27,006 bases of DNA from an uncultured Desulfobacterium sp. GTDB taxonomy: Bacteria; Desulfobacterota; Desulfobacteria; Desulfobacterales; Desulfobacteraceae. How positions within the stretch are numbered: the stretch's first letter is position 1; each line of letters begins with the position of its first letter. The notes beneath the pieces were generated by a model. It saw only the letters and a list, made by a program, of their open reading frames with translations. It was not told the origin of the DNA and did no database searches. The stretch is taken from assembly GCA_937124525.1 (NCBI GenBank), contig CAKZLA010000376.1, positions 1-27,006 on the forward strand. The letters are read 5' to 3'. Made by a program: the position numbers and the translations under genes. Of the stretch, positions 2,326 through 26,563 are shown in pieces.

Positions 2326-2326
2326 T

Positions 2327-2356: not shown

Positions 2357-2380
2357 TTCAATCTTAAAATTCTGATGCAT

Positions 2381-4809: not shown

Positions 4810-5197
4810 TGGTGTTCTCCTCTGATTTATCGATATTATTTTTTGTATCTGTTCCTTTGAACTTTAAATCTTGTCGCTGATGGTAATAGCCAACTGCAAA
4901 TCTTCCCTGCTCTTCAAGGGAAAATTGACGAGGAATAATTCCGCTTCCGTCCAGTCCGTCCACAATTTCACCGATAAGATTTTCAAAAAAATTCTTTCCG
5001 GAATCCATCTTTGCAAGGTGGTGGTTCTTTAATTTCATTAACTGTGGATAAACAGTGACAGGAGTGCTGGAAAAAGCGCCGTAGTATCTCTCTCTGATAG
5101 TTTCAATCTTCAGTGCTTTCCATTGCACCCTCTCAAGGACTGCGAAGAGCCGTCCTAAAAGATAGGCTGGATTTTTGTTCGTTTTATCAAGAGCCAC
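4802..5197 (-). CDS. cas11c: Internal small subunit Cas11c, translated from within cas8c
   Basis: Type I-C Cascade is known to need a small subunit, Cas11c, made from an internal start in cas8c. Here a GTG at 5197-5195 is in frame with cas8c (codon 556). It is preceded by a strong GAGGAGGAG Shine-Dalgarno sequence (5212-5204), with 8 nt between AGGAGG and GTG. The product would be 131 residues and start (V)[18 protein letters not shown]. Its length and position match Cas11c from other I-C systems. The SD match and placement are seen directly; function follows from the family. Confidence 0.8.
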
Positions 5198-6862: not shown

Positions 6863-7608
6863 TTTCGCACCTCTTCACTATTCCATTCAGGGACAACGAT
6901 TTTTCCGTTATTCATTTCTGCCCGAAAAAAAGCCGGCCGGATGTCATTGGGGTCTGAAAAATCAAGGTCGTAGAGCATGAATCCAAGATCGCGGTTTTCC
7001 TGAATCGGCAGATATCCATTCGCATAAGAGGATAGATCTTCTACAAGTTCAAAGTTTGCCGAAAATTCCCGGCAGCCAAGATAGGGCTGATTGAAACACT
7101 GCCCTTTTTTCACCCTTCGTTCAAACATTGCAAGGTATTTGCCGGGGTTTTCATCTTTTTTTGATTCACAAGCTTCAAGCGCGTCTTTTAAATCTTCAGT
7201 CTCTTCATTGTCCCATAGAATTTCAGAAACCGCTTTGAAATTGCCCTTTCGTTTATTTACAGGGATGTATTCCATCCAGGCATGAAGCCGATATCTGACA
7301 TCTCTCAAGAGAAGCCCCGCCCGCTGAAGGCGATTATCCTCTATGAATATCTGGTCTTTTTTCCCCTTTCCAGCAGTAGATCCAACCTCATTTCTCCGTA
7401 TAGAGATATTCTTGATCGGTGCAAGCACCTCAATTTCCCGGATATGCCATTTGATTGCCGGTTTCCAGAAAATTGCTTCAAATATGGCCCTTGAAGCTGA
7501 TGGGGTTATTACGTCATAGCTCACCCGCTCCACCTTCATTTCAGGGCGGGTGAAACAGGCGTAATCGCCCCATACCTCAAGGCAGAACCGCTTTTCACTT
7601 TTGTTCAT
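6859..7608 (-). CDS. cas5: Cas5 (Cas5d), crRNA-processing endoribonuclease of type I-C
   Basis: A 249-residue Cas5. The N-terminus FCLEVWGDYACFTRPEMKVERVSYDVITPSA carries the conserved Cas5 pattern, and LGCREFSANFELVED is the typical second RRM-like part. In type I-C, Cas5 replaces Cas6, cutting the repeat at the base of its hairpin and then staying on the crRNA. I chose the ATG at 7608 because an AAGGAG Shine-Dalgarno sequence lies just upstream and the protein then begins as in relatives. A frame upstream to 7725 is open but has no family similarity. The stop overlaps cas8c as ATGA. The 122-nt gap to cas3 contains a strong hairpin at 7670-7702. Confidence 0.95.
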   Translation of the reverse strand: MNKSEKRFCLEVWGDYACFTRPEMKVERVSYDVITPSASRAIFEAIFWKPAIKWHIREIEVLAPIKNISIRRNEVGSTAGKGKKDQIFIEDNRLQRAGLLLRDVRYRLHAWMEYIPVNKRKGNFKAVSEILWDNEETEDLKDALEACESKKDENPGKYLAMFERRVKKGQCFNQPYLGCREFSANFELVEDLSSYANGYLPIQENRDLGFMLYDLDFSDPNDIRPAFFRAEMNNGKIVVPEWNSEEVRK

Positions 7609-7669
7609 CGGCCACTCCTTTTTATAAGAAAGTGTAGGCATACCTAACATCACTTTCATGCTTTGTTGT

Positions 7670-7702
7670 GGGCGAGTCCGGGTCTCAAATCCCGGTCCGC
7701 CC
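7670..7702. other. Strong GC-rich hairpin between cas3 and cas5
   Basis: On the plus strand GGGCG-A-GTCCGGG pairs with CCCGGTCCGCCC across an 8-nt loop, giving ten GC pairs with one bulge and one mismatch. It has no following T-run in the direction of cas transcription, so it is not a classical terminator. It may stabilise or attenuate the message between cas3 and the Cascade genes. It vaguely resembles a tRNA T-arm, but the loop is one base too long and no tRNA body is present. Confidence 0.55.
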
Positions 7703-7730
7703 GTGGCGGTTATATTGTAATGCAACGATT

Positions 7731-9992: not shown

Positions 9993-10069
9993 ATTCAGGA
10001 TGTTCCTTTTTTTCTCAAAAACATTGTGGGTTTGAAGCAAATGATTAAAGAAAACAGTGAAACAGATTT

Positions 10070-12180: not shown

Positions 12181-13386
12181 CTACTCATGCCGCAGGGCGT
12201 CGATGGGATCCATTCGGGCCGCCTTCAGGGCCGGGAAATAGCCGAACACCACGCCCACGGCGGCTGAGAAGAGAAAGGCAATGAAGATGATGGAAAGGTC
12301 CGGAACAAAGGGGATGGAAAGGGCGCGGCTCGTGGCAAAGGAGGCCACCAGGGCCAAAACGATGCCGATGATGCCGCCAAGGGAAGAAAGGACCATGGAC
12401 TCCACCAGGAACTGTAAGAGTACCTCGTGCTCGTAGGCACCGATGGCCAGGCGGATGCCGATCTCCCGGGTCCGTTCCGTGACCGAGACCAGCATGATGT
12501 TCATGATGCCGATACCGCCCACAAGCAGGCTCACCGCAGCTACGGCCCCGAGCAGGGCGGTCATGGTCTTGGTGGTGGAGGTGAGCATGGCAGCCAGCTC
12601 CTTGGTGTCCATGATCCTGAAGTCGTCCTCCTCGTTGTCGGCGATGTGACGCCGCTTTCTGAGCATGTCGGCGATGACCGTGGCGGTATCTGAGGTGGAG
12701 ACCCCATCGGCCACCGCCACCTGGATCACGGCAATCTCCCTGTTCCCGGCGAACCTGCGCTGGACCGCCTTTAAGGGCATGACCACGATGTCGTCCTGGT
12801 CCCGGCCCATGGTGGACTGGCCCTTGGGGGCAAGCTGCCCCACCACCTGGCAGGAGACTGTACCCAGGCGCAGCTTGCGTCCCACAGGGTCCTGACCGGG
12901 GAACAAGTTGGTGCTGACGGTATCGCCCACCACGCATACGGCCCGGCCCGCGCTGAGTTCGCTTTGGGAAAAGCTGCGCCCGGCCTTGAGGACCCAGTTT
13001 CTCACCGAAAAAAAATCGTTGGTGCTGCCCGTGATACTGGTGCTCCAGTTCTGGTTTCCCACCACGGCAACGGCATTCCGGGTGACCGCCGGTGCCACGC
13101 CAGTGAGTTCTGGAATCTCTCTTTGCATGGCCGTGGCATCACTCAGGGTAAAGTTGGGTGCGCCAGCTGATCCGCCCGGACCGTGGCGCTTGCCGGGCGT
13201 GATCATGAGCACGTTGGTGCCCATGGCCGCAATCTGGTTGGTGACCTGAGCCGTGGTACCGTTACCGATGGTCACAAGCGTGATAACGGCACCCACCCCG
13301 ATGATGATTCCGAGGATGGTCAGGACCGACCGCAGCACGTTGCGTCGGATGTCCCGCAGGGCTAAACGAAATGTGTTCCAGATCAT
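12181..13386 (-). CDS. MacB/FtsX-type ABC transporter permease
   Basis: A 401-residue permease. There is one N-terminal membrane helix (about 18-40, VLTILGIIIGVGAVITLV), a large periplasmic MacB_PCD domain (about 45-265), and three C-terminal helices from about residue 270, with the signature LVGGIGIMNIMLVSVTERTREIGIRLAIGA. It ends PIDALRHE, as most of this family do. It acts by mechanotransmission, moving substrates in the periplasm toward the outer-membrane channel. The ATPase is a separate gene, unlike classical MacB, where they are fused. Its ATG overlaps the ATPase stop (ATGA, 13383-13386). It is the last gene of the operon. Confidence 0.95.
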   Translation of the reverse strand: MIWNTFRLALRDIRRNVLRSVLTILGIIIGVGAVITLVTIGNGTTAQVTNQIAAMGTNVLMITPGKRHGPGGSAGAPNFTLSDATAMQREIPELTGVAPAVTRNAVAVVGNQNWSTSITGSTNDFFSVRNWVLKAGRSFSQSELSAGRAVCVVGDTVSTNLFPGQDPVGRKLRLGTVSCQVVGQLAPKGQSTMGRDQDDIVVMPLKAVQRRFAGNREIAVIQVAVADGVSTSDTATVIADMLRKRRHIADNEEDDFRIMDTKELAAMLTSTTKTMTALLGAVAAVSLLVGGIGIMNIMLVSVTERTREIGIRLAIGAYEHEVLLQFLVESMVLSSLGGIIGIVLALVASFATSRALSIPFVPDLSIIFIAFLFSAAVGVVFGYFPALKAARMDPIDALRHE

Positions 13387-14138
13387 GGGGCCGTCTCCAT
13401 GGGTTCGGCGGTATTGGTAGATTCCGCCGCAGGTTCATCCATTCCTGGGCTTTCTCCTTCCACCCGTCCGTCCAGAAACCTGACGATGCGGTCCGAGTAG
13501 GCGGCCATTTCCGCCTCGTGGGTGACCATGACCACGGTGATCTTCCGGGTCTGGTTGAGTTCCTTTAAAAGCCCCATGATCTCGTGGCTCCGGGCGGAGT
13601 CCAGGTTCCCGGTGGGCTCATCCGCAAAAAGCACGGCGGGATGGGTGGCAATGGCCCTGGCAATGGCCACCCGCTGCTGCTGACCTCCGGAGAGTTCAGC
13701 CGGGGTGTGGGATGCCCTTCCTTCAAGCCCCACCTGTTCCAGGGCCTGAAGGGCCATGGCCCGCCGCTTTCCGGCGGGGATCCCCCGGTACATCAATGGC
13801 AGCTCAACGTTCTCCAGGGCAGTGGTCCGACTGAGCAGGTTAAAGCCTTGAAACACGAAGCCCAGATAAAACCTCCTCAGGGCGGCCAGTTTTTTCCGGG
13901 GCAGCCCGCTGACCTCCACGCCTCCGAACCGGTACCGGCCCGAGGTGGGGCTGTCAAGACACCCCAGGATGTTCATGCAGGTGGACTTGCCGGAGCCGGA
14001 CGGTCCCATAACCGAGATGAACTGTCCCGGTGCAATGGTCAGGTCAATGCCGCACAGGGCAAAAATCCGGGCCTGACCCGCGCCGTAGGCTTTGGTGACC
14101 TTTTCAAGGGAAATCAGGGGAGCGTCTTGTTCAGCCAT
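13383..14138 (-). CDS. ABC transporter ATPase (LolD/MacB type)
   Basis: A 251-residue nucleotide-binding protein. Motifs seen are GPSGSGKST (Walker A), LSGGQQQRVAIARAIA (signature), VLFADEPTGNLDS (Walker B with catalytic Glu) and VTHE (switch His). It should form a dimer and power the MacB-type permease encoded next. I placed the start at the ATG 14138, giving MAEQDAPLISLEKVTKAYG, because this leaves a normal 4-nt gap after the fusion-protein gene. The open frame continues upstream to 14270, but that part overlaps the previous gene and is not family-like. Confidence 0.94.
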   Translation of the reverse strand: MAEQDAPLISLEKVTKAYGAGQARIFALCGIDLTIAPGQFISVMGPSGSGKSTCMNILGCLDSPTSGRYRFGGVEVSGLPRKKLAALRRFYLGFVFQGFNLLSRTTALENVELPLMYRGIPAGKRRAMALQALEQVGLEGRASHTPAELSGGQQQRVAIARAIATHPAVLFADEPTGNLDSARSHEIMGLLKELNQTRKITVVMVTHEAEMAAYSDRIVRFLDGRVEGESPGMDEPAAESTNTAEPMETAP

Positions 14139-14142
14139 GGCT

Positions 14143-15468
14143 TCAACTTCCCCGCTTTCCCTGGGCCGAAAGAATGATCCGGGTGCCCGGCTTGATCCTG
14201 CCGTCAAGAATCTGGGTATCCACCCCGTCCGTAAGTCCGGCCTTGACCGGTACGGGCCTTGGCTGGTCATCTTTTCCCAGGATCCAGAGGGTCTTCCTGC
14301 CCTCGCCCCTGCCTGTGACGACGACCTGTTTGGGCTTACGGGGCGGCCTGCGCCTGGACGACCCCGGCATCAGGGCTGATAGAATCGACGGTTTCCGGTC
14401 CTTTGCACCGGAAGCGGACGGAGTGAAGCGAAGGGCGGCTGCCGGAACCGTCAGGGCCTGGACCGCCCGGCTAACCGCAATATCTGCGGTGGCGGTCATG
14501 CCGGGCCGCAGGGAAAGGTCATGGTTGTCCACCGTGAGAACTGTTTCGTAGGTCACCACCCCGTCCGTGGTGGTGGCGTTGTACCGAACCTGGCGGATGC
14601 GAGCGGCAAATTTCCTGTCAGGATAGGCATCCACAGTGAAGCTTGCCTCCTGTCCGTCCCTGACCTGACCGATGTCTGCTTCATCCACATCCACGTGGAG
14701 TTCCATTTGGGTTAGGTCCTCGGCCAGCAGAAAGAGAACCGGTGCCGAAAGGGAGGCGGCAACGGTCTGGCCCTCTTCAACGTTGCGGGTCAGGACCACG
14801 CCGTTCACAGGGGAGATAATATCCGCCTTGGACAACTCAGTGACGCTGATGTCCAGAGTGGCCCGGACCTCTGCCACGCCGGCCTCGGCACTGGCCTTGT
14901 TGGCAAGGGACCTGGCATGGGCCGCCCTTGCCACGTCCATGTCAGTTTTAGAAGGGACTTTGCCCTGGCTCAGTGCATGGACCTTTTCCAGGTTCTCCAG
15001 CGTAAGTCGAGTCTCCTCCACGGTGGCCTCGGCCTGGAGAACGGAGGCTTTGGCAGCAGCCAGGGCAGCCTTCTTCTGCCGTACCTGGGCCAGGCGCTCC
15101 GTCACGTCCAGACGTGCCAGGATCTGGCCCACACGGACATTGTCGTTGTAATCCACCAGCACCTCCCTGATGGTGCCGGAAAGCTCACTTCCCACCTCCA
15201 CCTGGTTGGTGGGTTCCAGGGTGCCGGTGGCGGTAACGGTCACGACAATGTCCTTGACGGCAGCAGACACTGTTTTAAAGGAGACGGCAGGTAAAACAGC
15301 ATCCTCCTGTTTTTTAAATATCTTGACATAGTAACCTGCCCCCAGAAGAAGAAAGATCAGAACAAGGGTCAGGAAAACTTTTTTCCCCCGTTTCCCGGAT
15401 GCCGATTGAAGGGTGGTGGTAATATCGGCAGCAAAGGTTTCAGGGGGGGAGGAATTTTGTGACGTCAT
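14143..15468 (-). CDS. Membrane-fusion protein (MacA/HlyD-like periplasmic adaptor)
   Basis: A 441-residue adaptor. A cytoplasmic N-terminus precedes one membrane helix (about 31-49, VFLTLVLIFLLLGAGYYV). After that come the barrel-sandwich (lipoyl) halves, an alanine-rich coiled-coil hairpin (about residues 125-215), and a beta-barrel with RPGMTATADIAVS. An extra basic, proline-rich stretch (SSRRRPPRKPK) interrupts the C-terminal part and makes it longer than E. coli MacA. It links the inner-membrane permease to the outer-membrane channel. The start overlaps the stop of the channel gene (ATGA, 15465-15468). The substrate cannot be read from the sequence. Confidence 0.94.
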   Translation of the reverse strand: MTSQNSSPPETFAADITTTLQSASGKRGKKVFLTLVLIFLLLGAGYYVKIFKKQEDAVLPAVSFKTVSAAVKDIVVTVTATGTLEPTNQVEVGSELSGTIREVLVDYNDNVRVGQILARLDVTERLAQVRQKKAALAAAKASVLQAEATVEETRLTLENLEKVHALSQGKVPSKTDMDVARAAHARSLANKASAEAGVAEVRATLDISVTELSKADIISPVNGVVLTRNVEEGQTVAASLSAPVLFLLAEDLTQMELHVDVDEADIGQVRDGQEASFTVDAYPDRKFAARIRQVRYNATTTDGVVTYETVLTVDNHDLSLRPGMTATADIAVSRAVQALTVPAAALRFTPSASGAKDRKPSILSALMPGSSRRRPPRKPKQVVVTGRGEGRKTLWILGKDDQPRPVPVKAGLTDGVDTQILDGRIKPGTRIILSAQGKRGS

Positions 15469-16937
15469 GGGAGTTTCCGATCGTTTAAGGTTTCAATGGG
15501 CCCCCATCCCCCGCCAAGGGCCTTGTACAGCAGAATGAGGTTAGACACCATGGTCCCCCGGCTTTCGGACAAGTCATTCCTGAAGGAAAGTTGGGTGCGC
15601 TGGGACTCGAGCACGGCGGTGAAATCCGTCAGGCCTGAGAGGTATTTTTTCCGGGCGAGCCGTTCTGCCTGTTCCGCCTCTGCCACGGCCCGGACCAGGA
15701 TGTCATACCGGGTCTGCTCGTTGGCATATTTAACCAGGCAATTCTCCACCTCTTCCACCGCATTCAGAATGGCGGACTCATACCGGATCAGGGCCTGTTT
15801 TTGAAGGGAGGACTGGACAAGGATCTTCTTTTTAATTGCACCGGCGTCAAAGAGGTTCCAGGAGACAGAGGCCATGATCTTGCGCAGCCAGTGAGAAGGG
15901 TCGGCGATGTTGCCTGCAAGTCTGCCCGGGGAGATCCCTTCCACTCCGATGGAGCCGGCAAGGGAGAGCTTGGGATAAAGGTCGGCCGTGGCCACGCCCA
16001 CCCGGGCGGTCTGGGCCATGAGTTCGTTTTCCGCCTCCCGGATGTCCGGCCGCCGCCTGATGGCATCGGCAGGCAGGCCAACGGCAACGGTGGGGGAAAG
16101 TTCCGGAAGGGAAACAACCTCACTGAGAAGGGTGTGAAGGTGGCCCGGCCGCTTCCCCGTGAGCACGGCCACCTTGTTCATGGCTGCCGAAAGGCTGTTC
16201 TCAAGGCCGGGTATTTTGGATTTTGCGCTTTCCAGATTGTAGGAGGCCTGTCGTACGGCCAGCTCGTCGGTCAGCCCGGCCTGGTATCTCCATAAGGTTA
16301 GCTGCCGGGATTCGGTCTGGGAGGAGATGCTTTCCCTGACCACCGCCAGGCGAGCCTGACTGGTCCTTACCTCAATGTAGCTTTGGGCCAGGTCGGCTGC
16401 AAGGGAAATGAGGACGTCCCGCAAAGCCTCCTGCTGGGCGGCAAGGTCGGCGTCCGCGGCCTCCATGGAGCGCCGAATCCGGCCGAACAGGTCTATCTCC
16501 CAGCCTGCGGCGAGCCCGGCGGTGTAGGCGGTATCGGTGGTGCCCTTTCCTTTCTCGTTGCTGGTCCCGGTCCAGGCAGCACTGCCGCTGGTATCCAGGG
16601 TTGGTCGTGTGTCCGCCCCCTCGATTTTCCGCAGGGCCCGGTACTGGGTAACGCGCGCCAGGGCCAGGCGTAAGTCCAGGTTGTCAAGGATAGCCTGGTC
16701 GATGAGATCGGACAGAATCGGGTCGCCGAAAATCTGCCACCATCGGGCCAAGCGTTCAGGGTCGGCCTGTTCCAGGGCCAATCCCTGGATCATGGGGGAG
16801 TGCCATGGCCCCTGGGGCACAAGGCCGGGACTTTCATAGTCCGGCCCTGCTGTGGTGCACCCGGCCGCCATTATCAGGAAGCAAAATATCCAAAATCTCC
16901 TGAAAAGAGAAAACTGATACTGACGGAAACCGGACAT
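15465..16937 (-). CDS. Outer-membrane efflux lipoprotein (NodT/TolC family)
   Basis: A 490-residue TolC-like channel subunit of the NodT type. The signal peptide ends at a lipobox, IMAAGC with Cys27 as the lipidated residue, followed by the typical GPDYESP. Two repeated outer-membrane-efflux domains follow, with landmarks WWQIFGDPILSDLI and RRRPDIREAENELMA. A trimer forms the exit duct of a tripartite pump. It is the first gene of the operon, with an AGAGGA Shine-Dalgarno sequence 6 nt before the ATG. The region upstream (16938-17094) is shared with the divergent riboswitch promoter, and I cannot assign a clear promoter for this side. Confidence 0.95.
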   Translation of the reverse strand: MSGFRQYQFSLFRRFWIFCFLIMAAGCTTAGPDYESPGLVPQGPWHSPMIQGLALEQADPERLARWWQIFGDPILSDLIDQAILDNLDLRLALARVTQYRALRKIEGADTRPTLDTSGSAAWTGTSNEKGKGTTDTAYTAGLAAGWEIDLFGRIRRSMEAADADLAAQQEALRDVLISLAADLAQSYIEVRTSQARLAVVRESISSQTESRQLTLWRYQAGLTDELAVRQASYNLESAKSKIPGLENSLSAAMNKVAVLTGKRPGHLHTLLSEVVSLPELSPTVAVGLPADAIRRRPDIREAENELMAQTARVGVATADLYPKLSLAGSIGVEGISPGRLAGNIADPSHWLRKIMASVSWNLFDAGAIKKKILVQSSLQKQALIRYESAILNAVEEVENCLVKYANEQTRYDILVRAVAEAEQAERLARKKYLSGLTDFTAVLESQRTQLSFRNDLSESRGTMVSNLILLYKALGGGWGPIETLNDRKLP

Positions 16938-17094: not shown

Positions 17095-17123
17095 TTGACA
17101 AACCCTTTTTTTTTAAATTATAC
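17095..17123 (+). promoter_or_regulatory. Sigma70-like promoter for the riboswitch transcript
   Basis: A perfect TTGACA (17095-17100) is followed after 17 nt by TTATAC (17118-17123). The start of transcription would be near 17130, just before the first base of the riboswitch. Confidence 0.75.
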
Positions 17124-17133
17124 CAACAAAGTT

Positions 17134-17284
17134 TAGGTGCTCATGGAGCTGAAGAGGGAACCCTGTGAAAATCGGGGACGGACCCGCCGCTGTAATCGGA
17201 GACGAACGCTGCAGAATACCACTGGCTGAAAGGCTGGGAAGGTGCGGCAATTAGGCTGAACCGAAAGTCAGAAAACCTGCCTGG
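17134..17284 (+). promoter_or_regulatory. Cobalamin (B12) riboswitch
   Basis: The conserved order of B12 riboswitch elements is visible: an AGGTGC start, GGGAACCCTGTGAAAATCGG, GACGGACCCGCCGCTGTAA (17184-17202), the B12 box with CCACTGGCTGAAAGGCTGGGA (written here as two parts, CCACTGGC and GAAAGGCTGGGAAGG), and CCGAAAGTCAGAAAACCTGC near the end. It lies on the plus strand ahead of the TonB receptor. When cobalamin binds, expression downstream is normally lowered. The terminator at 17475 may be the switching element, but it is about 190 nt downstream, which is far. Confidence 0.95.
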
Positions 17285-17474
17285 ACAAAAAAGATAGGTA
17301 TTGCCGCGTGGTTGGCACAGCCTTATTCTGGTTTTTTTAGGGGAAAGGAAAGTCCGGGGCCGAATGCCTTCGGTCCTGTTTATGAACTCATCGGCAATGA
17401 AGGCCGCATCCTTATCCTGATCTAAAAAGGCCAGAAGTATCAAACCAAAGGGCCAGAAATATTAAAGAAATCAG

Positions 17475-17518
17475 CCACGAAGGCAGGGACTACCTCTGTT
17501 TTCGTGGTTTTTTTTTTG
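17475..17518 (+). terminator. Rho-independent terminator after the riboswitch
   Basis: CCACGAA (17475-17481) pairs with TTCGTGG (17501-17507), with further partial pairing inside the loop. A run of T follows from 17508 to about 17518. It is a strong intrinsic terminator in the leader of the TonB gene and the best candidate for the riboswitch expression platform. Confidence 0.75.
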
Positions 17519-17610
17519 GAGGAGGGGAGAGGCTTTCAGATGGGCAAACAATGATTAATAGCTCAGAATTGAAATATAAATTAACTATTTGATAACAAAC
17601 TTTAGGTGAT

Positions 17611-17653
17611 GAAAAAAGGCAGCCGCATCCCGGCCAGGACGTTTTGGCTGCCT
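17611..17653 (-). terminator. Hairpin resembling a minus-strand terminator
   Basis: AAGGCAGCC and GGCTGCCTT (outer limits about 17616-17654) form a perfect 9-bp stem. On the minus strand the stem is followed by TTTTTTC, so it looks like a terminator for leftward transcription. No leftward gene lies immediately to its right, because the TonB receptor is on the plus strand. It might block antisense transcription or be a relic. Confidence 0.4.
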
Positions 17654-17782
17654 TCAGGTTCACAATCCCGGCAAGCGGGGCTGCTTCTCTTTTTTTACTT
17701 CAAAACGCCTCCATTGTCAATGCAGATGCTGGATTGTTCAGTCGTTAACATGTTGCTGCAAAAGTTGAAAAGGAGGAAAAAG

Positions 17783-19936
17783 ATGAAACGAATTTATGCG
17801 TCGGTGGTAGCACTGGGATTCTTTATGATGAGCATCCTCGTCGTGCCCGTCCACGCTCAAGATGAAAAAATCGGTTCCCAGCCGGTCACGTCCTCAGAAA
17901 TTGAAGACGGGAAGATCCATAAGCTAAAAGATGTGGTGGTTAAGGAAGAAAGTGGCGCAGAGGGGATTACGGTCAACCCCGGTAAAACCACCATTCAATT
18001 CGATGATTTTTCCATCGTTGGTGATAAAAACAATATCCAGGATTTGCTCAAAACCCAGGCTATTTTCGATTTTCGAGGAAGTACTGACCTGGTGCCAGAC
18101 AGCGATACCATGAACATGCGCGGCTTTTCCAGCGGACGTTTTGTCATGGCCGTTGACGGGCTGACTGTCCAAAAAACCGGCGGCCGCAAAGGTTCACATA
18201 TTGTGGACTACAGCCTGCTCTCCGCCCTGCCCATTGAAAAAATTGAAATCATCGCCGGCCCCCATTCATCCCTTTACGACAGCAAGAGCATCGGTGGTGC
18301 GGTCAACATCGTCACCCAGCCCCCCCACCGCCGTGATACCTTGGTGCCGGAGGCCAGTCTGAGCAGCAGTTACAGTTCCTATAATACCCAGAATCACAAG
18401 TTGAACCTGGATGGGGCCGTGGATATGGTGACCTATGCCGTCAGCGCCCAAAAACAGAGCACCGACGGTTATCTGCGCTACAACGAAACCGATATCGAAA
18501 CCTATTCGGGCAGCCTGGGACTGCTTCTGCCCTTTGATGGTTATGTTAATGTAACTGCTTCAAATTCCGAGATTGATCGGCAGGTTGTCGTGAACAACAC
18601 GGGGGAGGATTACGATTCCAGCTATCCGGAGGTAACGGATTCCTCATGGGAGCCCTATCAGGACCCCACCTGGGATAAAGAAGCGTGGTCCTACAAGCTG
18701 AACTATTTTCAGAATCTGCCCATGGGACGTCTGAGTGCAGGTGCTTACAAAAGCATGGAAAACCGCCACCGGGACTATGACGTCTGGATTGATGATGACG
18801 ATCATTCCCTTGGAACGGAACGGACCTATTGGAAGACAAAGTGGCAGCAGGAGGGGGGAAGAATTCAGGATCTCTACCAATGGTCTGAAAATCATGAGAC
18901 CACCATCGGTTTCGAGCTGGCAAGGCTGTACGATGGAGATGATCTGGATGAACGGATCAGGAAAAAGGGCACTTATATCCAGCACCAGTGGGACATTACC
19001 TCTTTTCTGGATGTGAAGTTAGGCTTGAGAAATGAGGATGTCCATATATGGGTCAGCAACAGCCAGACCAATGGTATTCCCAACCGCGGAGAGTGGATCG
19101 AACGAACCTGGAACGAATGGGTACCCAAGTCCTATACCACCTTGAAAATGGACCAGATGGCAGACTGGCTGCGGGACACCTCGCTTTCCCTGGGCGTTTC
19201 CAAAATCTGGCATGCACCGGATTCCCATGGCGAGTACAATCCCCAAGGCAGGCCGACCGGTGCCTGGCTGGATCCTGAACATGGCATCGGTTACGATCTG
19301 GTGCTTAACCGGCGTCTGTACAGGGATATTTCCATGACGATTGACTACTCTTTTTATCAGATCAAGGACTATATTGCCACCAATAGAAGTTACGCAAAAT
19401 ATTCCGGCGGCAATGCCGGTGAGCTGCGGTACAGCGATTATAAAATCAACCTTGAGGAAGTTTATCGCCACGGGATTGAACTCAACATGGGGGGGCATTT
19501 GTTTGATGACCTTTCATTTTATCTGAGCTATGCCTGGCAGAAATTTGACAACCAAGGTGACGAACCGGCAGGTGAAACGGAGCTGGACGATGAAGCCGAA
19601 CATCGGGTGACCGCCGGACTCAGTTACCAGCTTTGGGAGAAAACCGCTCTGAAGCTGGACTATTCCTATCAGGGTACGGAAACACAGGAGCAATCTGAAG
19701 AAATTGGTGAAGACGAAAATGGCGATCCAATTTATACTTATAGAGAGGTGGACAATCCTGCCTACAGCGTTTTTAATTTTGCCGTGGAACATACTCTGTT
19801 CAAAGAGAAGTACCACATAAAAAACGCACAGTTGCAGTTTTATATCAAAAACCTTCTGGATGAGGAGTACTACGACTCCCGGGGGTATCTGGCAACGGAC
19901 CGGACCTTTGGCGTCAATTTGAGTCTTCGGCTATAG
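17783..19936 (+). CDS. TonB-dependent outer-membrane receptor (probable cobalamin/corrinoid or tetrapyrrole uptake)
   Basis: A 717-residue receptor. A Sec signal peptide (about 1-25, ending VHA) precedes the mature start QDEK. A TonB-box-like DVVVK (in KLKDVVVKEES) follows. The plug domain includes MRGFSSGRFVMAVDG and IEKIEIIAGPHSSLYDSKSIGGAVNIVT. The rest is a beta-barrel ending in FGVNLSLRL. It imports its ligand across the outer membrane using TonB energy. The upstream B12 riboswitch suggests cobalamin, another corrinoid or a related tetrapyrrole as ligand. I chose the ATG at 17783 because an AAAGGAGG Shine-Dalgarno sequence precedes it and the signal peptide then starts properly. An open frame to 17606 has no such support. 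The next gene follows after 131 nt. Confidence 0.93.
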   Translation: MKRIYASVVALGFFMMSILVVPVHAQDEKIGSQPVTSSEIEDGKIHKLKDVVVKEESGAEGITVNPGKTTIQFDDFSIVGDKNNIQDLLKTQAIFDFRGSTDLVPDSDTMNMRGFSSGRFVMAVDGLTVQKTGGRKGSHIVDYSLLSALPIEKIEIIAGPHSSLYDSKSIGGAVNIVTQPPHRRDTLVPEASLSSSYSSYNTQNHKLNLDGAVDMVTYAVSAQKQSTDGYLRYNETDIETYSGSLGLLLPFDGYVNVTASNSEIDRQVVVNNTGEDYDSSYPEVTDSSWEPYQDPTWDKEAWSYKLNYFQNLPMGRLSAGAYKSMENRHRDYDVWIDDDDHSLGTERTYWKTKWQQEGGRIQDLYQWSENHETTIGFELARLYDGDDLDERIRKKGTYIQHQWDITSFLDVKLGLRNEDVHIWVSNSQTNGIPNRGEWIERTWNEWVPKSYTTLKMDQMADWLRDTSLSLGVSKIWHAPDSHGEYNPQGRPTGAWLDPEHGIGYDLVLNRRLYRDISMTIDYSFYQIKDYIATNRSYAKYSGGNAGELRYSDYKINLEEVYRHGIELNMGGHLFDDLSFYLSYAWQKFDNQGDEPAGETELDDEAEHRVTAGLSYQLWEKTALKLDYSYQGTETQEQSEEIGEDENGDPIYTYREVDNPAYSVFNFAVEHTLFKEKYHIKNAQLQFYIKNLLDEEYYDSRGYLATDRTFGVNLSLRL

Positions 19937-20067: not shown

Positions 20068-21747
20068 ATGCATGACAAAAAATTAAGAAAAGGGATTTGG
20101 ATCGGCGGATTGGTCTTGGTGCTGATATCCCTGATGACCCTGGGCTTCACGTTGTCAAGTGGATTGGCCCAGGCCCAACAGGGAAAAATGCCGGGAAGCT
20201 ACAAGGTGGTGGGCATCGGACCCGGGGATGGCGACCTTCTGACTGTGAGAGCGGCAGAGGCCATCCGCGCTGCGGATGTGGTGTTCTGCAACCCGAAAAC
20301 CAGAGAAAAACGTACCCCATATGTCGATTTTTCCGGGAAAAAGGTGGTGGATGGTTATGGGGTGTTGTTCCGCTATTACGGCAGGGATTGCAAAGCGATT
20401 AGCCAGGAGGAAAAGAGAGGCAAAGACGGAATGGACTGCGAAGGATTCCATCGCAGACAGGCTGAGTTTGCCACCATGGTAAGGGAGGCGGTAAAGGCAG
20501 GCAGGCATGTGGTCCTGCTCAGCGGCGGCGATCCCACCATTTATGGGCCGGATATGTGGAGCGTGAAGGAACTCAAGGATCTGGAGCCGACTGTCATTCC
20601 CGGTCTCAGCGCCTTTAACGCCGCCAATGCAGCTCTTCAGGTCAGCCTGGGAGAAGTGATACTCACGGCCCCGTTCAAAAAAGAAGGAAGCCGGGACAGC
20701 ATTGAGCAATTGGCCGGACATGACAGGGCCACCATGGTTATTTTCATGCCCCGAAACATGCAGGAGCTGTTTGCGCGTCTTTCAACATCCTGTCCTGCAA
20801 ATACGCCGGCGGCCGTTGTCGGCAATGCCGGTATGGTCGGCCAGGAAACGATCACCATGGGCACGGTGGGCGGTTTTGCCGCCGACACTTCCGGAATCAA
20901 TGGACGAAGATCCATCGTATACGTGGGCAAAGCCCTGGGTTGGGCCGCATTCAAGCCTGCCTCGGCATCCAAACAGAGCGGCAAGGGAAAGTTCTATCTG
21001 GTTGGTGTGGGGCCTGGTGATCCTGATCTGATCACCCTGCGGGGGCTTGCAGTGATCAAATCGGCGGACCTGGTTTTTGCCCACCAGCGGCTTAAAGAAA
21101 AATTCAAGGACGCTTTGTCCGGCAAAAAGGTGGTCACCGGCTATCATCGCCTTTTTCCCTTTTACGGAAAACCCTGTGCCAAGGTTCAGCCAAACACCCA
21201 AAATCGGGAACGTATGAGCTGCGAAGAGTATCATAAAAAACAGGAAGAGTTCGCCGCCATGGTGCGTGCGGCAGTGGCCCAAGGCAAAACCGTTGCCATG
21301 CTGGACAGCGGAGACCCGTTGGTCTACGGCCCCTGTGCGTGGTCCCTGACTGAACTACGTGACCTTAATACCGAAGTGGTGCCGGGACTCAGTTGTTTCA
21401 ATGCTGCCAATGCCGCCCTCAAGGCCGGTGTCACCGAAGGGAAAAACTCCCATTCCGTGCTCCTGGCATCGGGATGGTCAGTGGAGGAAATGGCCGTTCA
21501 TCAGAGCACCATGGTGCTCTTTACCATGCGTACGGAGTTTAAGAAGTTCATCGACGGTCTGTCGACCCATTATGCTGCAGACACCCCCGTGGCCATCGTA
21601 TTTAGTGCCGGTTATGCGGAAAAGGAAAAGATCATGCACGGAACTCTGGGAACGATTCTGGATCAGACAGGAAGCGGCAAAATGCCCTTTGAATATTTGC
21701 TTTATGTGGGTGAATTTTTGTCTGATGGAGGGCGGGTTGCCCATTAA
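20068..21747 (+). CDS. Exported protein with two tandem tetrapyrrole-methylase domains
   Basis: A 559-residue protein. An N-terminal Sec signal peptide or anchor (about 8-37, GIWIGGLVLVLISLMTLGF, then AQA) precedes two copies of the SAM-dependent tetrapyrrole (corrin/porphyrin) methylase fold, at about 44-292 and 307-552. Each copy has a first glycine-rich motif (GIGPGDGDLLT; GVGPGDPDLIT), a GDP motif (SGGDPTIYGP; DSGDPLVYGP), and PGLSxFNAANAAL. Both also share an insertion YG(R/K)xC...CExxH, with Cys108, Cys124, His128 and Cys370, Cys385, His389. Known relatives (CbiF, CobA/SUMT type) are cytoplasmic single-domain enzymes of B12 and siroheme synthesis. The start has a TGGAGA Shine-Dalgarno sequence. 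Location beyond the inner membrane and the B12-controlled context suggest a role in binding or modifying imported tetrapyrroles. Catalysis is not established. Confidence 0.9.
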   Translation: MHDKKLRKGIWIGGLVLVLISLMTLGFTLSSGLAQAQQGKMPGSYKVVGIGPGDGDLLTVRAAEAIRAADVVFCNPKTREKRTPYVDFSGKKVVDGYGVLFRYYGRDCKAISQEEKRGKDGMDCEGFHRRQAEFATMVREAVKAGRHVVLLSGGDPTIYGPDMWSVKELKDLEPTVIPGLSAFNAANAALQVSLGEVILTAPFKKEGSRDSIEQLAGHDRATMVIFMPRNMQELFARLSTSCPANTPAAVVGNAGMVGQETITMGTVGGFAADTSGINGRRSIVYVGKALGWAAFKPASASKQSGKGKFYLVGVGPGDPDLITLRGLAVIKSADLVFAHQRLKEKFKDALSGKKVVTGYHRLFPFYGKPCAKVQPNTQNRERMSCEEYHKKQEEFAAMVRAAVAQGKTVAMLDSGDPLVYGPCAWSLTELRDLNTEVVPGLSCFNAANAALKAGVTEGKNSHSVLLASGWSVEEMAVHQSTMVLFTMRTEFKKFIDGLSTHYAADTPVAIVFSAGYAEKEKIMHGTLGTILDQTGSGKMPFEYLLYVGEFLSDGGRVAH

Positions 21748-21890: not shown

Positions 21891-23318
21891 ATGTCCAATG
21901 GATTAAAACGGGAACTGGGGCTGTTTTCGGCAACGGCCCTGGTCATTGCCAACATGGTCGGTTCCGGTATTTTCACGACCTCCGGGTTTATCATGGCCGA
22001 GCTGAAAAATCCCCATACCCTTGTTTTGTGCTGGGTTTGCGGCGGATTGTTTGCTCTGTGCGGGGCCCTGTGCTACGGAGAACTGGGTGCACGCTTTCCC
22101 AAGGCAGGCGGGGAATACGTTTTTCTAAAGGAGACCCTGGGCCGACCGGTGGGGTTTCTCTCCGGCTGGATCTCCTTGATCGTGGGATTTTCCGCTCCCA
22201 TTGCAGCGGCATCCATGGCCTTTGCCACCTACCTTTTTCAGGCCTTTTCAATCCCTGCGGGCAATGGGGGGATGGTTTTTAAGGTAGCCGGCATCCCTTT
22301 GGTGAACTTGTCGCCCATGACGCTGACGGCCATGGGGGTGATCCTGCTCTTTTCTCTGATCCACTATCACAGCCTGCAGGTCGGTAGCCGGGTACAGAAC
22401 GGATTGACACTGTTTAAAATCGCTCTTGTGGTCGTGTTTATCGGTGCTGGTCTGGCATTGGGCAACGGCTCCATGGACCATTTTACAGCCCCTGCATTCC
22501 CTGTCTGGTCTTCGGATAAGTTTGCCGTGTCCCTGATTTTTGTCTCCTTTTCTTACAGCGGATGGAACGCCGCCGCATACCTGGGAGCTGAGATCGTCAA
22601 TCCCCAACGAAATATTCCCATTGCTTTGCTGGCCGGTACCATCATTGTGGTGATTTTGTACGTTCTGCTGAATCTTGTATACTTGTATGCATTACCTTCC
22701 GAAGCCATGGAGGGGGTACTGGAAATCGGTGCCAAGTCTGCCTCTTTCCTGTTCGGCAGGGGCGTTAGCCGACTGTTCAGCGGTGCCGTGGCCCTGGGGT
22801 TGTTGTCCGTGCTGAGCGCCATGATTCTGACCGGGCCGAGAATTTATTACGCCATGGCCAGGGATGGACTCTTCTTTCAGATGTTTGGCAGGTTGGACCC
22901 GCATCGCAGCACACCGGCCAAATCCATTTTCCTGCAAGCGGCCATCGCCGTCATGATGGTGGTTTCAGCTTCATTTGACAGTCTTTTGCTCTATATCGGC
23001 TTTACCCTTTCGCTCTTTGCCATGCTGGCGGTCATTGGCTTGATGCGCATCCGGCAACGCACCCCCCTGCCCGGCGGAACATACCGGACCTTCGGATATC
23101 CGTTGACCCCGCTGCTTTTTGTCTCTGGGAATCTATGGATCATTTTTTTCTCGATCAAAAGCCGTCCGGTCACGGCCCTGTTCGGCCTCGGTACCATCGG
23201 ACTGGGAGTTTTGACATACCTCTATTTCAACCGCCGGAACCGCCGGGGAGGCGATCCCTTTTCAATGGACGTCCAGGACAATCTTGAAACCATACAACAA
23301 CAGAGCAGATCCAATTGA
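21891..23318 (+). CDS. APC-superfamily amino-acid/polyamine permease
   Basis: A 475-residue integral membrane protein with about 12 hydrophobic segments. The start GLFSATALVIANMVGSGIFTT (here as GLFSATALVIANM and VGSGIFTT) is the hallmark first helix of APC transporters, with the GSGIF substrate loop. Further signs are GELGARFPKAGGEYVFLKE and SYSGWNAAAYLGAEIVNPQRN. The family moves amino acids, polyamines or related amines, usually by proton symport or exchange. The ATG at 21891 follows a GGAGATAGA Shine-Dalgarno sequence. A GTG 15 nt upstream would only add five residues. Its stop overlaps the next gene's ATG by one base (TGATG), so translation is likely coupled. The substrate is not readable. 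Confidence 0.93.
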   Translation: MSNGLKRELGLFSATALVIANMVGSGIFTTSGFIMAELKNPHTLVLCWVCGGLFALCGALCYGELGARFPKAGGEYVFLKETLGRPVGFLSGWISLIVGFSAPIAAASMAFATYLFQAFSIPAGNGGMVFKVAGIPLVNLSPMTLTAMGVILLFSLIHYHSLQVGSRVQNGLTLFKIALVVVFIGAGLALGNGSMDHFTAPAFPVWSSDKFAVSLIFVSFSYSGWNAAAYLGAEIVNPQRNIPIALLAGTIIVVILYVLLNLVYLYALPSEAMEGVLEIGAKSASFLFGRGVSRLFSGAVALGLLSVLSAMILTGPRIYYAMARDGLFFQMFGRLDPHRSTPAKSIFLQAAIAVMMVVSASFDSLLLYIGFTLSLFAMLAVIGLMRIRQRTPLPGGTYRTFGYPLTPLLFVSGNLWIIFFSIKSRPVTALFGLGTIGLGVLTYLYFNRRNRRGGDPFSMDVQDNLETIQQQSRSN

Positions 23319-26300
23319 TGGGTCTGCATCCGAATATGGATGGAATGTACGACGCAAATACACGGCCTGAAGATAAAAAAATGCTGAACCTTTTCATAGC
23401 CGGCTGCTTTTTTCTCTCTGGAGCCGCCGGTCTCGTCTATGAAGTCATCTGGGTGCGGCTGATCGATAAGATCATCGGCGGTGCGCCCTTTGCCGTGACC
23501 ACTGTGCTTTCCGTGTTCATGGGCGGATTGGCCCTGGGCAGCTATTTGTCCGGCCGGATCGTGGACCGATTTACCCGGCGTGCAACCCTGCTGACCCTGT
23601 ACGGTGTCATGGAAATCGGTATTGGCTCGTGTGCCATGCTCGTACCGCTCCTTATCCGGGCCATTCAGCCTTTCTATCACTTTTTTTATGACCAGCTTCT
23701 GAATCATACCTGGGCATATCCCCTTGTGGCCTTTGTCAGCTCTGTTTTTATTTTGATCGTGCCCACGGCGCTCATGGGAGCCACCCTTCCTGTGCTGTGC
23801 CGGTTTTACGTCATGCGTCTGGATCATATCGGTAGTCGCACCGGATGGCTTTACGGCCTGAACACCATCGGAGCTGCACTGGGCGTTATTCTGTGCGGAT
23901 TTGTGTTGATTAAAACCCTGGGCGTTTCCATGACCCTGGCCCTGTTTGCCTCCATCAACGGATTGATCGGCCTGTCCTGCATTCTGCTTTCACGTTTCCT
24001 GCCGGCCGATGGGATGTCAACGGTTTGTTCCCACCAAAAAAAATTTGCCAAAGCCATGGTGCCGGAATGCAGCAATACCCACGAAGAATTTGTCCACTGG
24101 GGTGTGCTGATCTTTGTTGCTTCCGGGTTCTGTGCCATGGCTTACGAGGTGTTATGGACACGTTTGCTGGGGCTCATTGCCGGACCGACAACCTATTGTT
24201 TCAGTCTTGTGGTGGCCACCTTTATCATTGGCCTGGCCCTGGGCAGTATCCTGTTCGGTCGCCTGGCCGACAAAACCCGCAACGCCTTGGTTTTACTGGC
24301 CGGTACCCAGATGGCGGCAGCCATGATGGCACTTGCCGTAAGCCAACTCCTGGGTAACGGCCAATTCTTTTTCGCCAAATTAATTCATACTTACCATGAC
24401 CGGTTTTCCCATCTTCTTTTCATGCAGTCCCTGGTGCTGTTCAGCCTGCTGCTGGTACCGACCCTGCTCCTGGGGGCGGCCTTTCCGCTGGTCAACCGCC
24501 TTTATGTACAATCCATCGGCAACATGGGGCGTCGTATGGGAACGGCCTATGCCCTGAATACCGTGGGTGCCCTGACCGGTTCATTCATTGCCGGGTTTGT
24601 GCTGGTGCCATGGGTGGGCAAAATGAACGGGTTACGTCTGGTCATCTTATTGCAGTTTTGTTTGTCAGGTCTGGTGCTCTTATTCCTGAGCGTCAAAAGG
24701 CGCAAAGGTTTCCCCCATGGCTTGACCATTGCGGGGCTCATCGGTATCGGATGCCTGGTGATCACTCTTTTCCCCAACTGGCACACCGATCTGCTTTCAC
24801 GGGGATGGTACAGGGATTTTGGTGCACTCCAGTCGGACCTGGACTGCACGGGGTGGGGAGAGGCTGTGATGAAAGGGGCCCGGCGCATTGCCGGTCACCG
24901 CCAGGGGCTGGATGTCGTTTTCCAGGGGGAGAGCGCCGGCGGGTTTACCACGGTGGAAAGGGAGACCACCAGCATGGGAACCGTGGAATACGCCATGTTC
25001 AACAGTGGCAAGGCCGATGCTTCTTCCCATGGCGACCGTTCCACGCAAACGCTTTCCGCACATATTCCCATGCTCTTCCATCCAGGCGCCAAAAGCGTCA
25101 TGCTGCTGGGTCTTGCCAGCGGTATGACCGCCGGAGAGGTCCTGCTCTATCCGGTGGAAAGGCTGGATGTACTGGAGATCAACCAAGCGGTGGTCACCGC
25201 CTGCCGGAACTATTTTTTTCCCTGGAACAATAACTGCCTGGACGATCCGCGCACCCATGTGATGATTCAGGACGGCCGTAATCATCTGGCACTGACCCGG
25301 CAATCCTATGATGTCATTATCTCCGAGCCTTCCAATCCCTGGATGGCGGGACTGGCCAACTTATACACCCTGGAATTTTTTCAATTGGCCAGGAAGCGTT
25401 TGACTCCCAAGGGCTTTTTCGGCCAGTGGATTCAAGCCTATGAAATGGATAAAAAAACATTTTCCCTGTTGGGGCGAACTTTTACTGCTGTTTTTCAAAA
25501 CAGTGCCCTGATCAAAGTGGGGCCTGTGGATTACCTCATGCTGGGCTTCAATGACGAGCACGAAAAATTGGACTGGAATGTGGCAAAGCAGAATGCGGTC
25601 CATGCCAAAAAATCCACTCTGGTCAGTTTCCCTGGAATTGATTTTCTTGTCCATTTGATTATATCCGAAGATTTGAGACCTATTTTCGGCAACGGTCCGC
25701 TGCATACGGATAATCTGCCCTATCTTGAATTTTCAGCCCCCAGAACCATGTATCAGGAGAGTGAGGATATCCAACGTATGATCGGCGGAAAACGTTGGTT
25801 ATCGGCGGATACAAATCGCTTTTTAAACCACAGCAATGATAATGCCAGCCTGATGGATCTGGTGGAGTTCGCCGCCTCGGCCAATGTGCCCATGTTTAAG
25901 ACTGTGCCCTGGCTCCGGCTTGAAAAAAAAGAGAAGCTGCGTTACCGGAAAATCGTGGATAGCTATTGCCGGCGGGTTCTGGTGCCCTCCTATGACATCT
26001 TTGATTGCCTGGATCTCAAAACCGCCTGTGCCGGGATTCAAGCCGCTGCCATTCAAAAAAAAATCACGGCCGATGATCATGCCGCGGCCATTGATCATTA
26101 TAACCTGGCTCTGGCCCATATCGCCGGCGGAAAGAAAATGCCGGCCACGGACAGTCTGCGCACGGCAATCCGGCTCGATGCGAACAATGAGGCGGCGCTG
26201 ACCGCCCTGGGTCTGCTCATGGCCGAATCCGGCTCCCTGGATAAAGCAGCGCAGTTCTTAAACAATGCCATCGGGTTGGCACCACGCAAGGCAGCACCTT

Positions 26301-26563
26301 ACAAGTATCTGGGGATGGTGGAGCTGAGGCGCAGGGCGCCTGACCAGGCCATCCTTAATCTATCCACCGCACTTCGCCTTTCCCCCAACGATGGCGTGAT
26401 CCTCAGTGAGTTGGGGACGGCCTATTATCTACAGGGCAATACGGACAAGGCGCTTGCCTACCTGAACAAGGCCCTTGCCAACAATCCTCGTGATGAACAA
26501 AGCCGGTATTACCTGGAACTGGCCATGGAAAAACAAAAAAAGCAGTCTGAAATTCGGCAGTAA
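23318..26563 (+). CDS. Membrane-fused spermidine-synthase-like protein with C-terminal TPRs
   Basis: A 1081-residue multidomain protein. Two related membrane halves (about 27-225 and 262-490) start with similar signatures, LSGAAGLVYEVIWVRL and ASGFCAMAYEVLWTRL. A Rossmann domain of the spermidine-synthase type follows (about 540-750), with VMLLGLASGMTAGEVL, LDVLEINQAV, IQDGRNHL and YDVIISEPSNPWMAG. The last ~150 residues look like TPR repeats (GLLMAESGSLDKAAQFL, ELGTAYYLQGNTDKALAYL). Classical spermidine synthase transfers an aminopropyl group from decarboxylated SAM. The glycine motif here is GLASGMTAG, not GGGDGG, so the activity may differ. The ATG at 23318 shares a base with the permease stop. 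A terminator follows at 26640. Confidence 0.92.
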   Translation: MGLHPNMDGMYDANTRPEDKKMLNLFIAGCFFLSGAAGLVYEVIWVRLIDKIIGGAPFAVTTVLSVFMGGLALGSYLSGRIVDRFTRRATLLTLYGVMEIGIGSCAMLVPLLIRAIQPFYHFFYDQLLNHTWAYPLVAFVSSVFILIVPTALMGATLPVLCRFYVMRLDHIGSRTGWLYGLNTIGAALGVILCGFVLIKTLGVSMTLALFASINGLIGLSCILLSRFLPADGMSTVCSHQKKFAKAMVPECSNTHEEFVHWGVLIFVASGFCAMAYEVLWTRLLGLIAGPTTYCFSLVVATFIIGLALGSILFGRLADKTRNALVLLAGTQMAAAMMALAVSQLLGNGQFFFAKLIHTYHDRFSHLLFMQSLVLFSLLLVPTLLLGAAFPLVNRLYVQSIGNMGRRMGTAYALNTVGALTGSFIAGFVLVPWVGKMNGLRLVILLQFCLSGLVLLFLSVKRRKGFPHGLTIAGLIGIGCLVITLFPNWHTDLLSRGWYRDFGALQSDLDCTGWGEAVMKGARRIAGHRQGLDVVFQGESAGGFTTVERETTSMGTVEYAMFNSGKADASSHGDRSTQTLSAHIPMLFHPGAKSVMLLGLASGMTAGEVLLYPVERLDVLEINQAVVTACRNYFFPWNNNCLDDPRTHVMIQDGRNHLALTRQSYDVIISEPSNPWMAGLANLYTLEFFQLARKRLTPKGFFGQWIQAYEMDKKTFSLLGRTFTAVFQNSALIKVGPVDYLMLGFNDEHEKLDWNVAKQNAVHAKKSTLVSFPGIDFLVHLIISEDLRPIFGNGPLHTDNLPYLEFSAPRTMYQESEDIQRMIGGKRWLSADTNRFLNHSNDNASLMDLVEFAASANVPMFKTVPWLRLEKKEKLRYRKIVDSYCRRVLVPSYDIFDCLDLKTACAGIQAAAIQKKITADDHAAAIDHYNLALAHIAGGKKMPATDSLRTAIRLDANNEAALTALGLLMAESGSLDKAAQFLNNAIGLAPRKAAPYKYLGMVELRRRAPDQAILNLSTALRLSPNDGVILSELGTAYYLQGNTDKALAYLNKALANNPRDEQSRYYLELAMEKQKKQSEIRQ

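Follow-up and report, generated by a model that had tools for sequence, protein, structure and literature searches.

An exported tandem protein of the tetrapyrrole methylase fold within a TonB receptor cassette of sulfate-reducing bacteria

We analyzed a stretch of 27,006 nucleotides from an uncultured Desulfobacterium sp. (contig CAKZLA010000376.1 of assembly GCA_937124525.1), which as a whole is called the window here. One of its genes encodes a protein of 559 amino acids in which the sequence points to an export signal, two class III methylase folds, and intact cofactor-site residues. Comparison of loci places the gene, as judged from sequence, in a conserved cassette with a TonB receptor, a DUF4198/NikK-type protein, and an APC permease; part of the loci appear to add NikL-like, ExbBD/TonB, or CbiM genes, and in some genomes predicted cobalamin riboswitches precede such genes. 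The reading that we prefer, and regard as about evenly balanced between right and wrong, is that the protein sits in the cell envelope as a non-catalytic part of a TonB-dependent cassette for the acquisition of cobalt, perhaps as a corrinoid, in which it binds or transfers the incoming cobalt compound. Nickel or a non-tetrapyrrole metallophore is possible as the ligand. What would be new is a class III methylase fold repurposed as an envelope component of TonB-coupled metal or cofactor uptake. The features of the window are as follows.

12181 to 16937, minus strand: MacB, ABC ATPase, HlyD, and OEP genes, divergent (tripartite efflux pump; Pfam), of uncertain cassette membership
17118 to 17298, plus strand: cobalamin riboswitch aptamer (RF00174; Rfam, 111.1 bits, E value 2.3e-27)
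17473 to 17509, plus strand: terminator-like hairpin and T run, a probable expression platform (consensus match only)
17606 to 19936, plus strand: TonB-dependent receptor, close to the FCYXU family of selenoproteins (Pfam Plug, E value 1.9e-11)
19199 to 19249, plus strand: receptor site SKIWHAPDSHGEYNPQG, a His-type variant (some relatives have CxxU or CxxC there)
20068 to 21747, plus strand: exported tandem tetrapyrrole-methylase-fold protein, 559 amino acids (open reading frame, Pfam, AlphaFold)
20068 to 20175, plus strand: predicted export signal, residues 1 to 36, probable cleavage at AQA/QQ (heuristics)
20197 to 20943, plus strand: TP_methylase domain 1, about residues 44 to 292, with an insert containing C108-C124
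20986 to 21726, plus strand: TP_methylase domain 2, about residues 307 to 553, with an insert containing C370-C385
21876 to 23318, plus strand: APC-family amino-acid-type permease, a conserved cassette neighbor (PF13520, E value 4.3e-54)
23315 to 26563, plus strand: MFS/spermidine-synthase-like/TPR fusion, a frequent cassette gene (PF01564, NF037959)

The hairpin has 16 pairs, of which 7 are G-C, and is followed by TTTTTTTT. The likely start of the receptor is the ATG at 17782, with a signal peptide, and the tandem gene begins 131 bp past the receptor gene, itself downstream of the riboswitch. In the fusion protein at 23315 to 26563, SEPSNPW stands in the place of the usual catalytic motif of the DSSDP type. 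All four kinds of gene in the divergent efflux set also occur within two other loci (L049 and L061), and three of them within L175. A CbiO match at 13461 to 14126 is a MacB-type ABC ATPase by Pfam and was left out of the CbiO counts; CbiO-only matches in L048 and L049 were likewise not used. A fragment at 11380 to 11523 matches a portion of the MacB protein at 12184 to 13386 with 89.6% identity, which suggests a partial duplication. The minus-strand reading frames at 997 to 10040 resemble, by eye, what we take to be a type I-C CRISPR-Cas operon, presumably with Cas2-, Cas1-, Cas4-, Cas7-, Cas8-, Cas5-, and Cas3-like members. Within that set lies a Fic-like open reading frame (HPFFDGNGR, 3028 to 3846), and a repeat-like peptide, GAWIET, occurs at nearby reading frame starts in the same region.

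Pfam PF00590 matched the tandem protein in two stretches with 276.5 bits, against a gathering score of 27.8, and its two halves share 42% identity. AlphaFold returned a confident two-domain model (pLDDT 86.9, pTM 0.85) that is predicted to have the three-dimensional class III methyltransferase fold of the PF00590 superfamily; the solved structures nearest to it are those of CobM and CbiF, which align with domain 2. None of the 25 NCBIfam B12 equivalogs viewed, out of 31 that matched, fits the protein well. The best was CobM/CbiF (TIGR01465), which scored 184.8 against a cut-off of 259.65. CbiE (TIGR02467) alone was formally above its cut-off (102.0 against 92.9), but as three stretches spread across the two domains. 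In a tree of 48 rows, CbiF and CobA came together (92/91) and the exported domains fell elsewhere, the tandem domains (91/98) and branches s1, s2, and s3 all lying outside the CbiF-CobA group and the other cytosolic groups; this tree has an unresolved backbone and long branches and does not establish that all exported forms share one origin. An identity as CbiF/CobM was rejected on the score below the TIGR01465 cut-off and on the failure to group with genuine CbiF. The idea that the exported protein substitutes for a missing pathway enzyme was rejected because each of five genomes checked for cytosolic corrin methylases (four with tandem forms, one with single forms only) holds 8 to 12 PF00590 matches, exported domains included. 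The non-exported PF00590 genes examined in these genomes belong, as named from the alignment, to the CbiF, CbiL, CobA, CbiH, CbiE, or RsmI groups.

The first 36 residues of the window protein resemble a signal-peptidase I signal, with a hydrophobic stretch and an AQA site, and no lipobox was found; export calls here and below are heuristic and were not made with SignalP. The search for tandem homologs gave 499 matches at an E value of 1e-3 or better among 7998 scored candidates, of which the best 120, the window protein included, were inspected; matches beyond these may include cytosolic enzymes. A hydrophobic N terminus was present in 119 of the 120, the exception (P0057) beginning late, and a lipobox-like site was seen in 71 and an AxA site in a further 23. 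Many of the homologs are therefore probably envelope lipoproteins, and as sequence features such lipobox-like signals would be difficult to explain in a cytoplasmic enzyme. The best 120 of 744 matches to a single-domain relative included 115 with a hydrophobic N terminus and 4 with a lipobox-like site. None of 10 measurable cytosolic relatives reached the export threshold of 1.6 (17 were examined, 7 being too short before the first motif); the highest value, 1.53, belonged to a CbiE scored on the default 40-residue stretch. Both export and cassette membership of the tandem protein are well supported. The preliminary description had read two tetrapyrrole methylase domains behind an export signal, near a TonB receptor and a B12 riboswitch, and each element has held up: the domains in the two Pfam stretches and the AlphaFold model, export in the homologs' N termini, and the setting in the RF00174 and Plug matches and the terminator-like hairpin.

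The closest named relative among the best 120 is from Desulfocicer niacini (85% identity), followed by those of Desulfosarcina species, and Candidatus Electrothrix cable bacteria also carry homologs (P0081 and P0102). Matches at an E value of 1e-60 or better occurred in 6 of 297 genomes of a phylum sample and 25 of 389 genomes of an order sample, and matches at 1e-55 in 5 of 21 and 4 of 39 genomes of two further orders; these counts pool tandem and single forms, and each sample includes the genomes from which the search started. Annotated names, where given, are mostly precorrin-4 methylase or SAM-dependent methyltransferase. Yet 234 of the 240 relatives inspected (the best 120 of 499 tandem and the best 120 of 744 single-domain matches) look exported, so that counting PF00590 genes overcounts B12 enzymes. 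Single-domain exported TP genes with one in-frame TAG were seen at 11142 to 12011 of L066 and in L131/L140.

The SAM contacts of the NirE crystal structure, as given in a section of PMC4731766, are P27, D105, T133, and M186. Mapped by motif, with NirE itself outside the alignment, their equivalents are kept in both domains in 119 to 120 of the best 120 tandem homologs (P52/P316, D155/D416, S181/S442, and M227/M487), T133 being a serine in both. The NirE substrate residues R111, E114, R149, and H161, mapped in the same way, have no counterpart in either domain, and an identity as SUMT (CobA/CysG/NirE) was rejected on that basis. CbiF also differs at these positions, so their loss excludes SUMT chemistry only; R51 of NirE was left out of the comparison because the cytosolic CobA in the alignment lacks it too. 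Set beside SUMT, the active sites keep their SAM half, whereas the SUMT substrate half is replaced. A corrinoid-modifying role, one of two that had been proposed at the outset, is unlikely because SAM is a cytoplasmic molecule and the known SUMT substrate residues are replaced; the SAM site is oddly well kept. In the single-domain branch s1, GNP stands in place of GDP in two of four proteins and the serine of PG-x-S is missing in three of four. Each tandem domain also has an extra loop with two cysteines that are invariant in a 57-sequence alignment and kept in 119 to 120 of the best 120 tandem homologs. Both cysteines are present in the aligned tandem and s2 proteins and both are absent from s3 and s1, so that a disulfide or an optional site is as likely as a metal site, and the cysteines were rejected as a key metal site.

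Neighboring genes were sought by tblastn with the cassette proteins in 21 tandem loci (the window, L001, L004, L048 to L062, and L141 to L143) and in 14 single-domain loci (L063 to L076). A TonB receptor is present in 19 of the 21 tandem loci, as a fragment only in L048, and is absent from L056 and L059. The DUF4198/NikK-type protein was found in 17 (not in the window, L050, L052, or L062) and the APC permease in 18 (not in L001, L059, or L062). Other partners were NikL-like proteins in 10, the SpdSyn-MFS fusion in 9, ExbB with ExbD in 5, and CbiM in 3, one of these on the opposite strand; no DUF4198, NikL, or CbiM match was obtained in the window. The single-domain loci gave a receptor in 12, DUF4198 in 8, the permease in 9, NikL-like proteins in 5, CbiM in 2, and SpdSyn-MFS in 1. 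Several contigs are short, so absences of neighbors are uncertain. ExbB, ExbD, TonB, and DUF3450 genes lie upstream in some loci. The assignment as NikL is weak within the cassettes, at 57.9 and 39.5 bits where the cut-off is 100, and clear in L176 (153.6 bits). One locus, L069, has a natural fusion of DUF4198 and an exported TP_methylase domain in a single polypeptide (2416 to 3975, minus strand; Pfam scores of 136.8 against 34 and 144.8 against 27.8, respectively). Controls were 43 shorter loci totaling 144.6 kb, taken around either TP genes (13) or riboswitches (30). No DUF4198, NikL, or SpdSyn-MFS was found in them; the permease occurred once, beside the TP gene of L120, a control that proved to hold an exported TP gene. 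DUF3450 was found in one control, CbiO in three, CbiM in two, and weak TonB receptor matches (50 to 81 bits) in six.

The window receptor scored 728.1 bits on the FCYXU model NF049945, under the cut-off of 825, and its site is of the His type; with the CxxU/C motif also absent, membership in FCYXU was rejected. Among 29 receptor frames viewed, 16, the window included, have the His-type PDxHxxYNxQG, 8 have an in-frame TGA at CxxU/PCPU, 2 have CxxC, and 3 fit no type (two broken frames in L058, plus L074). A His-type receptor was present in 12 of the 15 tandem loci compared, with L141 to L143 left out. Receptors adjoining tandem genes in four genomes (G001, G566, G521, and G019) scored 710 to 802 bits, below the FCYXU cut-off, and the receptor beside single TP genes in G343 scored 1135.8 bits. 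Receptors with an in-frame TGA beside exported TP genes were seen in L001 (1725 to 3785 and 6301 to 8475), L052, L063, L065, L066, L069, and L076, and are candidate selenoproteins on the evidence of the reading frame. The FCYXU-type family figures among selenoproteins in a portion of PMC13188914, and a portion of PMC12013277 reports that Desulfosarcina sp. BuS5 has a TonB receptor containing selenocysteine, without the FCYXU name. An exchange of Cys, Sec, and His at this site would suit a metal ligand.

Riboswitch control was less general than the window would suggest. All 21 tandem loci were scanned, and a cobalamin riboswitch lies directly 5' of the receptor and tandem gene in three, namely, the window, L062, and L143. 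Seven genomes carry 4 to 24 such riboswitches each, and the binomial chance of at least 3 of 21 loci having one within 500 bp is about 6e-7, with loci treated as independent and the rate taken from the densest of three genomes. The association is far above chance, yet not general. None lies directly upstream in the other 18 loci, the relatives L049 and L051 among them; within those 18, no receptor is present in L056 and L059 and just a fragment in L048, and little upstream sequence is available for L050 and L052. A relaxed Rfam search of L048, L049, and L051 gave no riboswitch at E values up to 0.01. Homologs thus mostly keep the signal (119 of 120) and the receptor (19 of 21) but seldom the riboswitch, and since the frequent partners are metal-ion uptake parts, a corrinoid is no more than a possible ligand. 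In L001, a riboswitch lies 5' of an MFS gene of the same cluster. Thirteen of 16 single-domain loci were scanned (L063 to L076, L135, and L136, without L069, L074, and L075), and the only riboswitch, in L136, precedes a putative cobaltochelatase gene (760.5 bits, cut-off 779.45) and not the TP gene.

Riboswitches also precede related genes elsewhere. In Desulfonema magnum (L174), one is followed by two TonB receptor genes, one of the FCYXU type (855.1 bits, above the cut-off), and then by NikL-like and APC genes, with the TP gene absent. In genome G566, an FCYXU-like receptor (L175, 4877 to 7051; 751.6 bits, below the cut-off) has a riboswitch on one side and a corrinoid adenosyltransferase gene on the other, and in L176 a riboswitch stands ahead of CbiM and NikL, with CbiM directly behind it. 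The best CbiM model for that protein, NF004905, is also the best for the cassette CbiMs of L004, L058, and L073. NikKMLQO operons behind B12 riboswitches were taken as implying cobalt uptake by Zhang et al. in 2009 (a part of PMC2667541). Searches of 32 loci with E. coli and delta-type NikR patterns gave 24 and 36 fuzzy matches, against 42 to 51 and 66 to 102 in five mononucleotide shuffles, and so no NikR signal. A Fur-like pattern had 5 matches against 0 to 1 in shuffles, scattered and not ahead of receptors, and no other regulator was identified in those loci. An FmdE-like protein (PF02663; L174, 12193 to 16998) and long reading frames that by eye are dehydratase-activase-like (L174, same region; L176, 6253 to 12601) lie in clusters that also have FCYXU-like receptors and cobalamin riboswitches.

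A cobalt acquisition cassette might work as follows. Low B12 would allow the riboswitch to permit synthesis of the receptor and the tandem protein, and the receptor would take in a cobalt compound, which may be a corrinoid or some other chelate of cobalt. The tandem protein, probably free in the periplasm here and membrane anchored in many relatives, would bind the incoming complex in its old cofactor and tetrapyrrole clefts, acting as a binding or transfer protein and not as a methyltransferase. The complex or its metal would then be handed on, the metal to DUF4198/NikL and CbiMQO and the ligand to the APC permease. In favor of this account are the export signals, the cassette partners that the controls largely lack, the DUF4198-TP fusion, the three upstream riboswitches, the FCYXU-like receptor of L175, the NF004905 subtype of CbiM shared with L176, and the other PF00590 genes in the five genomes checked. 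The kept SAM-site residues count against it, being needless for a pure metal carrier, as do the 18 tandem loci with no riboswitch directly upstream, the presence of CbiM in just 3 of 21, and the window's own lack of DUF4198, NikL, and CbiM matches; the TP fold is uninformative on the ligand. A more specific version, which we think improbable, has the retained SAM pocket hold the 5'-deoxyadenosyl (or methyl) upper ligand and the tetrapyrrole cleft hold the corrin, making the protein a receptor for coenzyme B12; it would account for a near-invariant SAM site outside the cytoplasm. If true, a complex of enzyme, SAM, and corrin would have been turned into the coenzyme B12 receptor of a TonB-dependent, partly selenocysteine-based cobalt salvage system.

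The same near invariance of a SAM-type site in an exported protein would also suit a metallophore cassette for nickel or cobalt that involves no tetrapyrrole, an explanation we consider possible but less likely. The MFS/spermidine-synthase-like protein would make or export a SAM-derived chelator, the receptor would retrieve its metal complex, and the TP-fold protein would bind that complex through the SAM-like pocket; metal would pass to NikK/NikL/CbiMQO, and the amino-acid-like ligand to the permease or a MacAB-type pump. The tandem loci agree with this in the frequency of the SpdSyn-MFS fusion (9 of 21) and the permease (18 of 21), as do the alternation of Cys/Sec with His at the receptor site, which metal ligands might show, and the MacAB-like genes near the cassette in the window, L049, and L061 and near the FCYXU-like receptor in L175. 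However, just one of the 14 single-domain loci has the fusion, no gene cluster for a known metallophore was noticed in passing, and the metallophore synthases known to us belong to other families. A system for nickel, or for a nickel tetrapyrrole such as F430, in which B12 control of three loci was a secondary takeover, seems to us rather unlikely: NikR-like boxes are not above shuffles, and the cassette CbiMs fit cobalt CbiM models, with the same subtype behind a riboswitch in L176. In its favor, 18 of 21 tandem loci have no riboswitch directly upstream, and a part of PMC2667541 assigns NikK and NikL to nickel uptake; cable bacteria, carriers of two homologs, depend on nickel according to a part of PMC11247825.

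Two further explanations keep the protein an enzyme. That it is an active periplasmic methyltransferase, or another enzyme using SAM or SAH, with an extracytoplasmic corrinoid as the molecule modified, is very unlikely in our judgment, even with the NirE-type SAM contacts in place in nearly every homolog: we know of no periplasmic supply of SAM, the NirE substrate residues are gone (though CbiF differs there too), and s1 proteins have partly lost the GDP and PG-x-S motifs. Still less probable is an N-terminal segment that serves as an inward-facing anchor of a cytoplasmic biosynthetic enzyme. The window protein does lack a lipobox, and the site at which it would be cleaved is a prediction, but the lipobox-like and AxA sites of its homologs argue otherwise, a basic N terminus favors export of the C terminus, the paired invariant cysteines fit an oxidizing compartment, and all five genomes checked have other PF00590 genes. 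We keep to the non-catalytic cobalt acquisition component as the working explanation.

The protein had been singled out as a candidate for an undescribed function, and this was upheld insofar as no extracytoplasmic tetrapyrrole methylase was found among the best-matching papers of the open-license literature, as represented by titles and abstract beginnings and the terms used; the phrase "tetrapyrrole methylase" was absent from the best-matching open-license papers. The family is sizeable and unrecognized, and its cassette offers a testable route by which sulfate reducers and cable bacteria may scavenge cobalt or nickel, as well as a context for selenocysteine TonB receptors. Many of its loci share a DUF4198 protein of the NikK type and a NikL-like protein with the NikKMLQO/CbiMNQO nickel-cobalt ECF uptake systems, and a few share CbiM, but the cassette couples them to a TonB receptor, an APC permease, and a TP-fold protein. 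The main text of PMC2667541 contains neither TonB nor tetrapyrrole, and PMC11247825, which treats a TonB receptor next to a Nik/Opp/Dpp operon, has no mention of tetrapyrrole, methylase, or amino acid permease. Relative to the FCYXU receptor (NF049945), some cassette relatives carry the in-frame TGA at CxxU, whereas the window site is of the His type. The precorrin-4 C11-methyltransferase CbiF/CobM differs from the tandem protein in that the latter is exported and duplicated, carries in each domain the extra loop with its two invariant cysteines, lacks the GRTPVPE-type stretch of CbiF, stays below the 259.65 cut-off, and lies outside the CbiF branch. The BtuB-BtuF-BtuCD system is alike in having a TonB receptor under a cobalamin riboswitch and an exported partner, but here the partner has the TP fold. 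A BtuBFCD identity was rejected, as the window receptor scored 63.6 bits on the BtuB model against 599.7 and no BtuF or BtuCD was found by Pfam among the eight window proteins scanned. Bacteroides BtuG, a surface corrinoid lipoprotein, may be compared alongside that system. The periplasmic cobaltochelatase CbiK-P of Desulfovibrio is likewise an exported B12-pathway fold in a sulfate reducer, with another fold and without tandem methylase domains. In the tandem protein, too, the fold of a biosynthetic B12 enzyme seems to have been put to a new use outside the cytoplasm, that of capturing nutrients.
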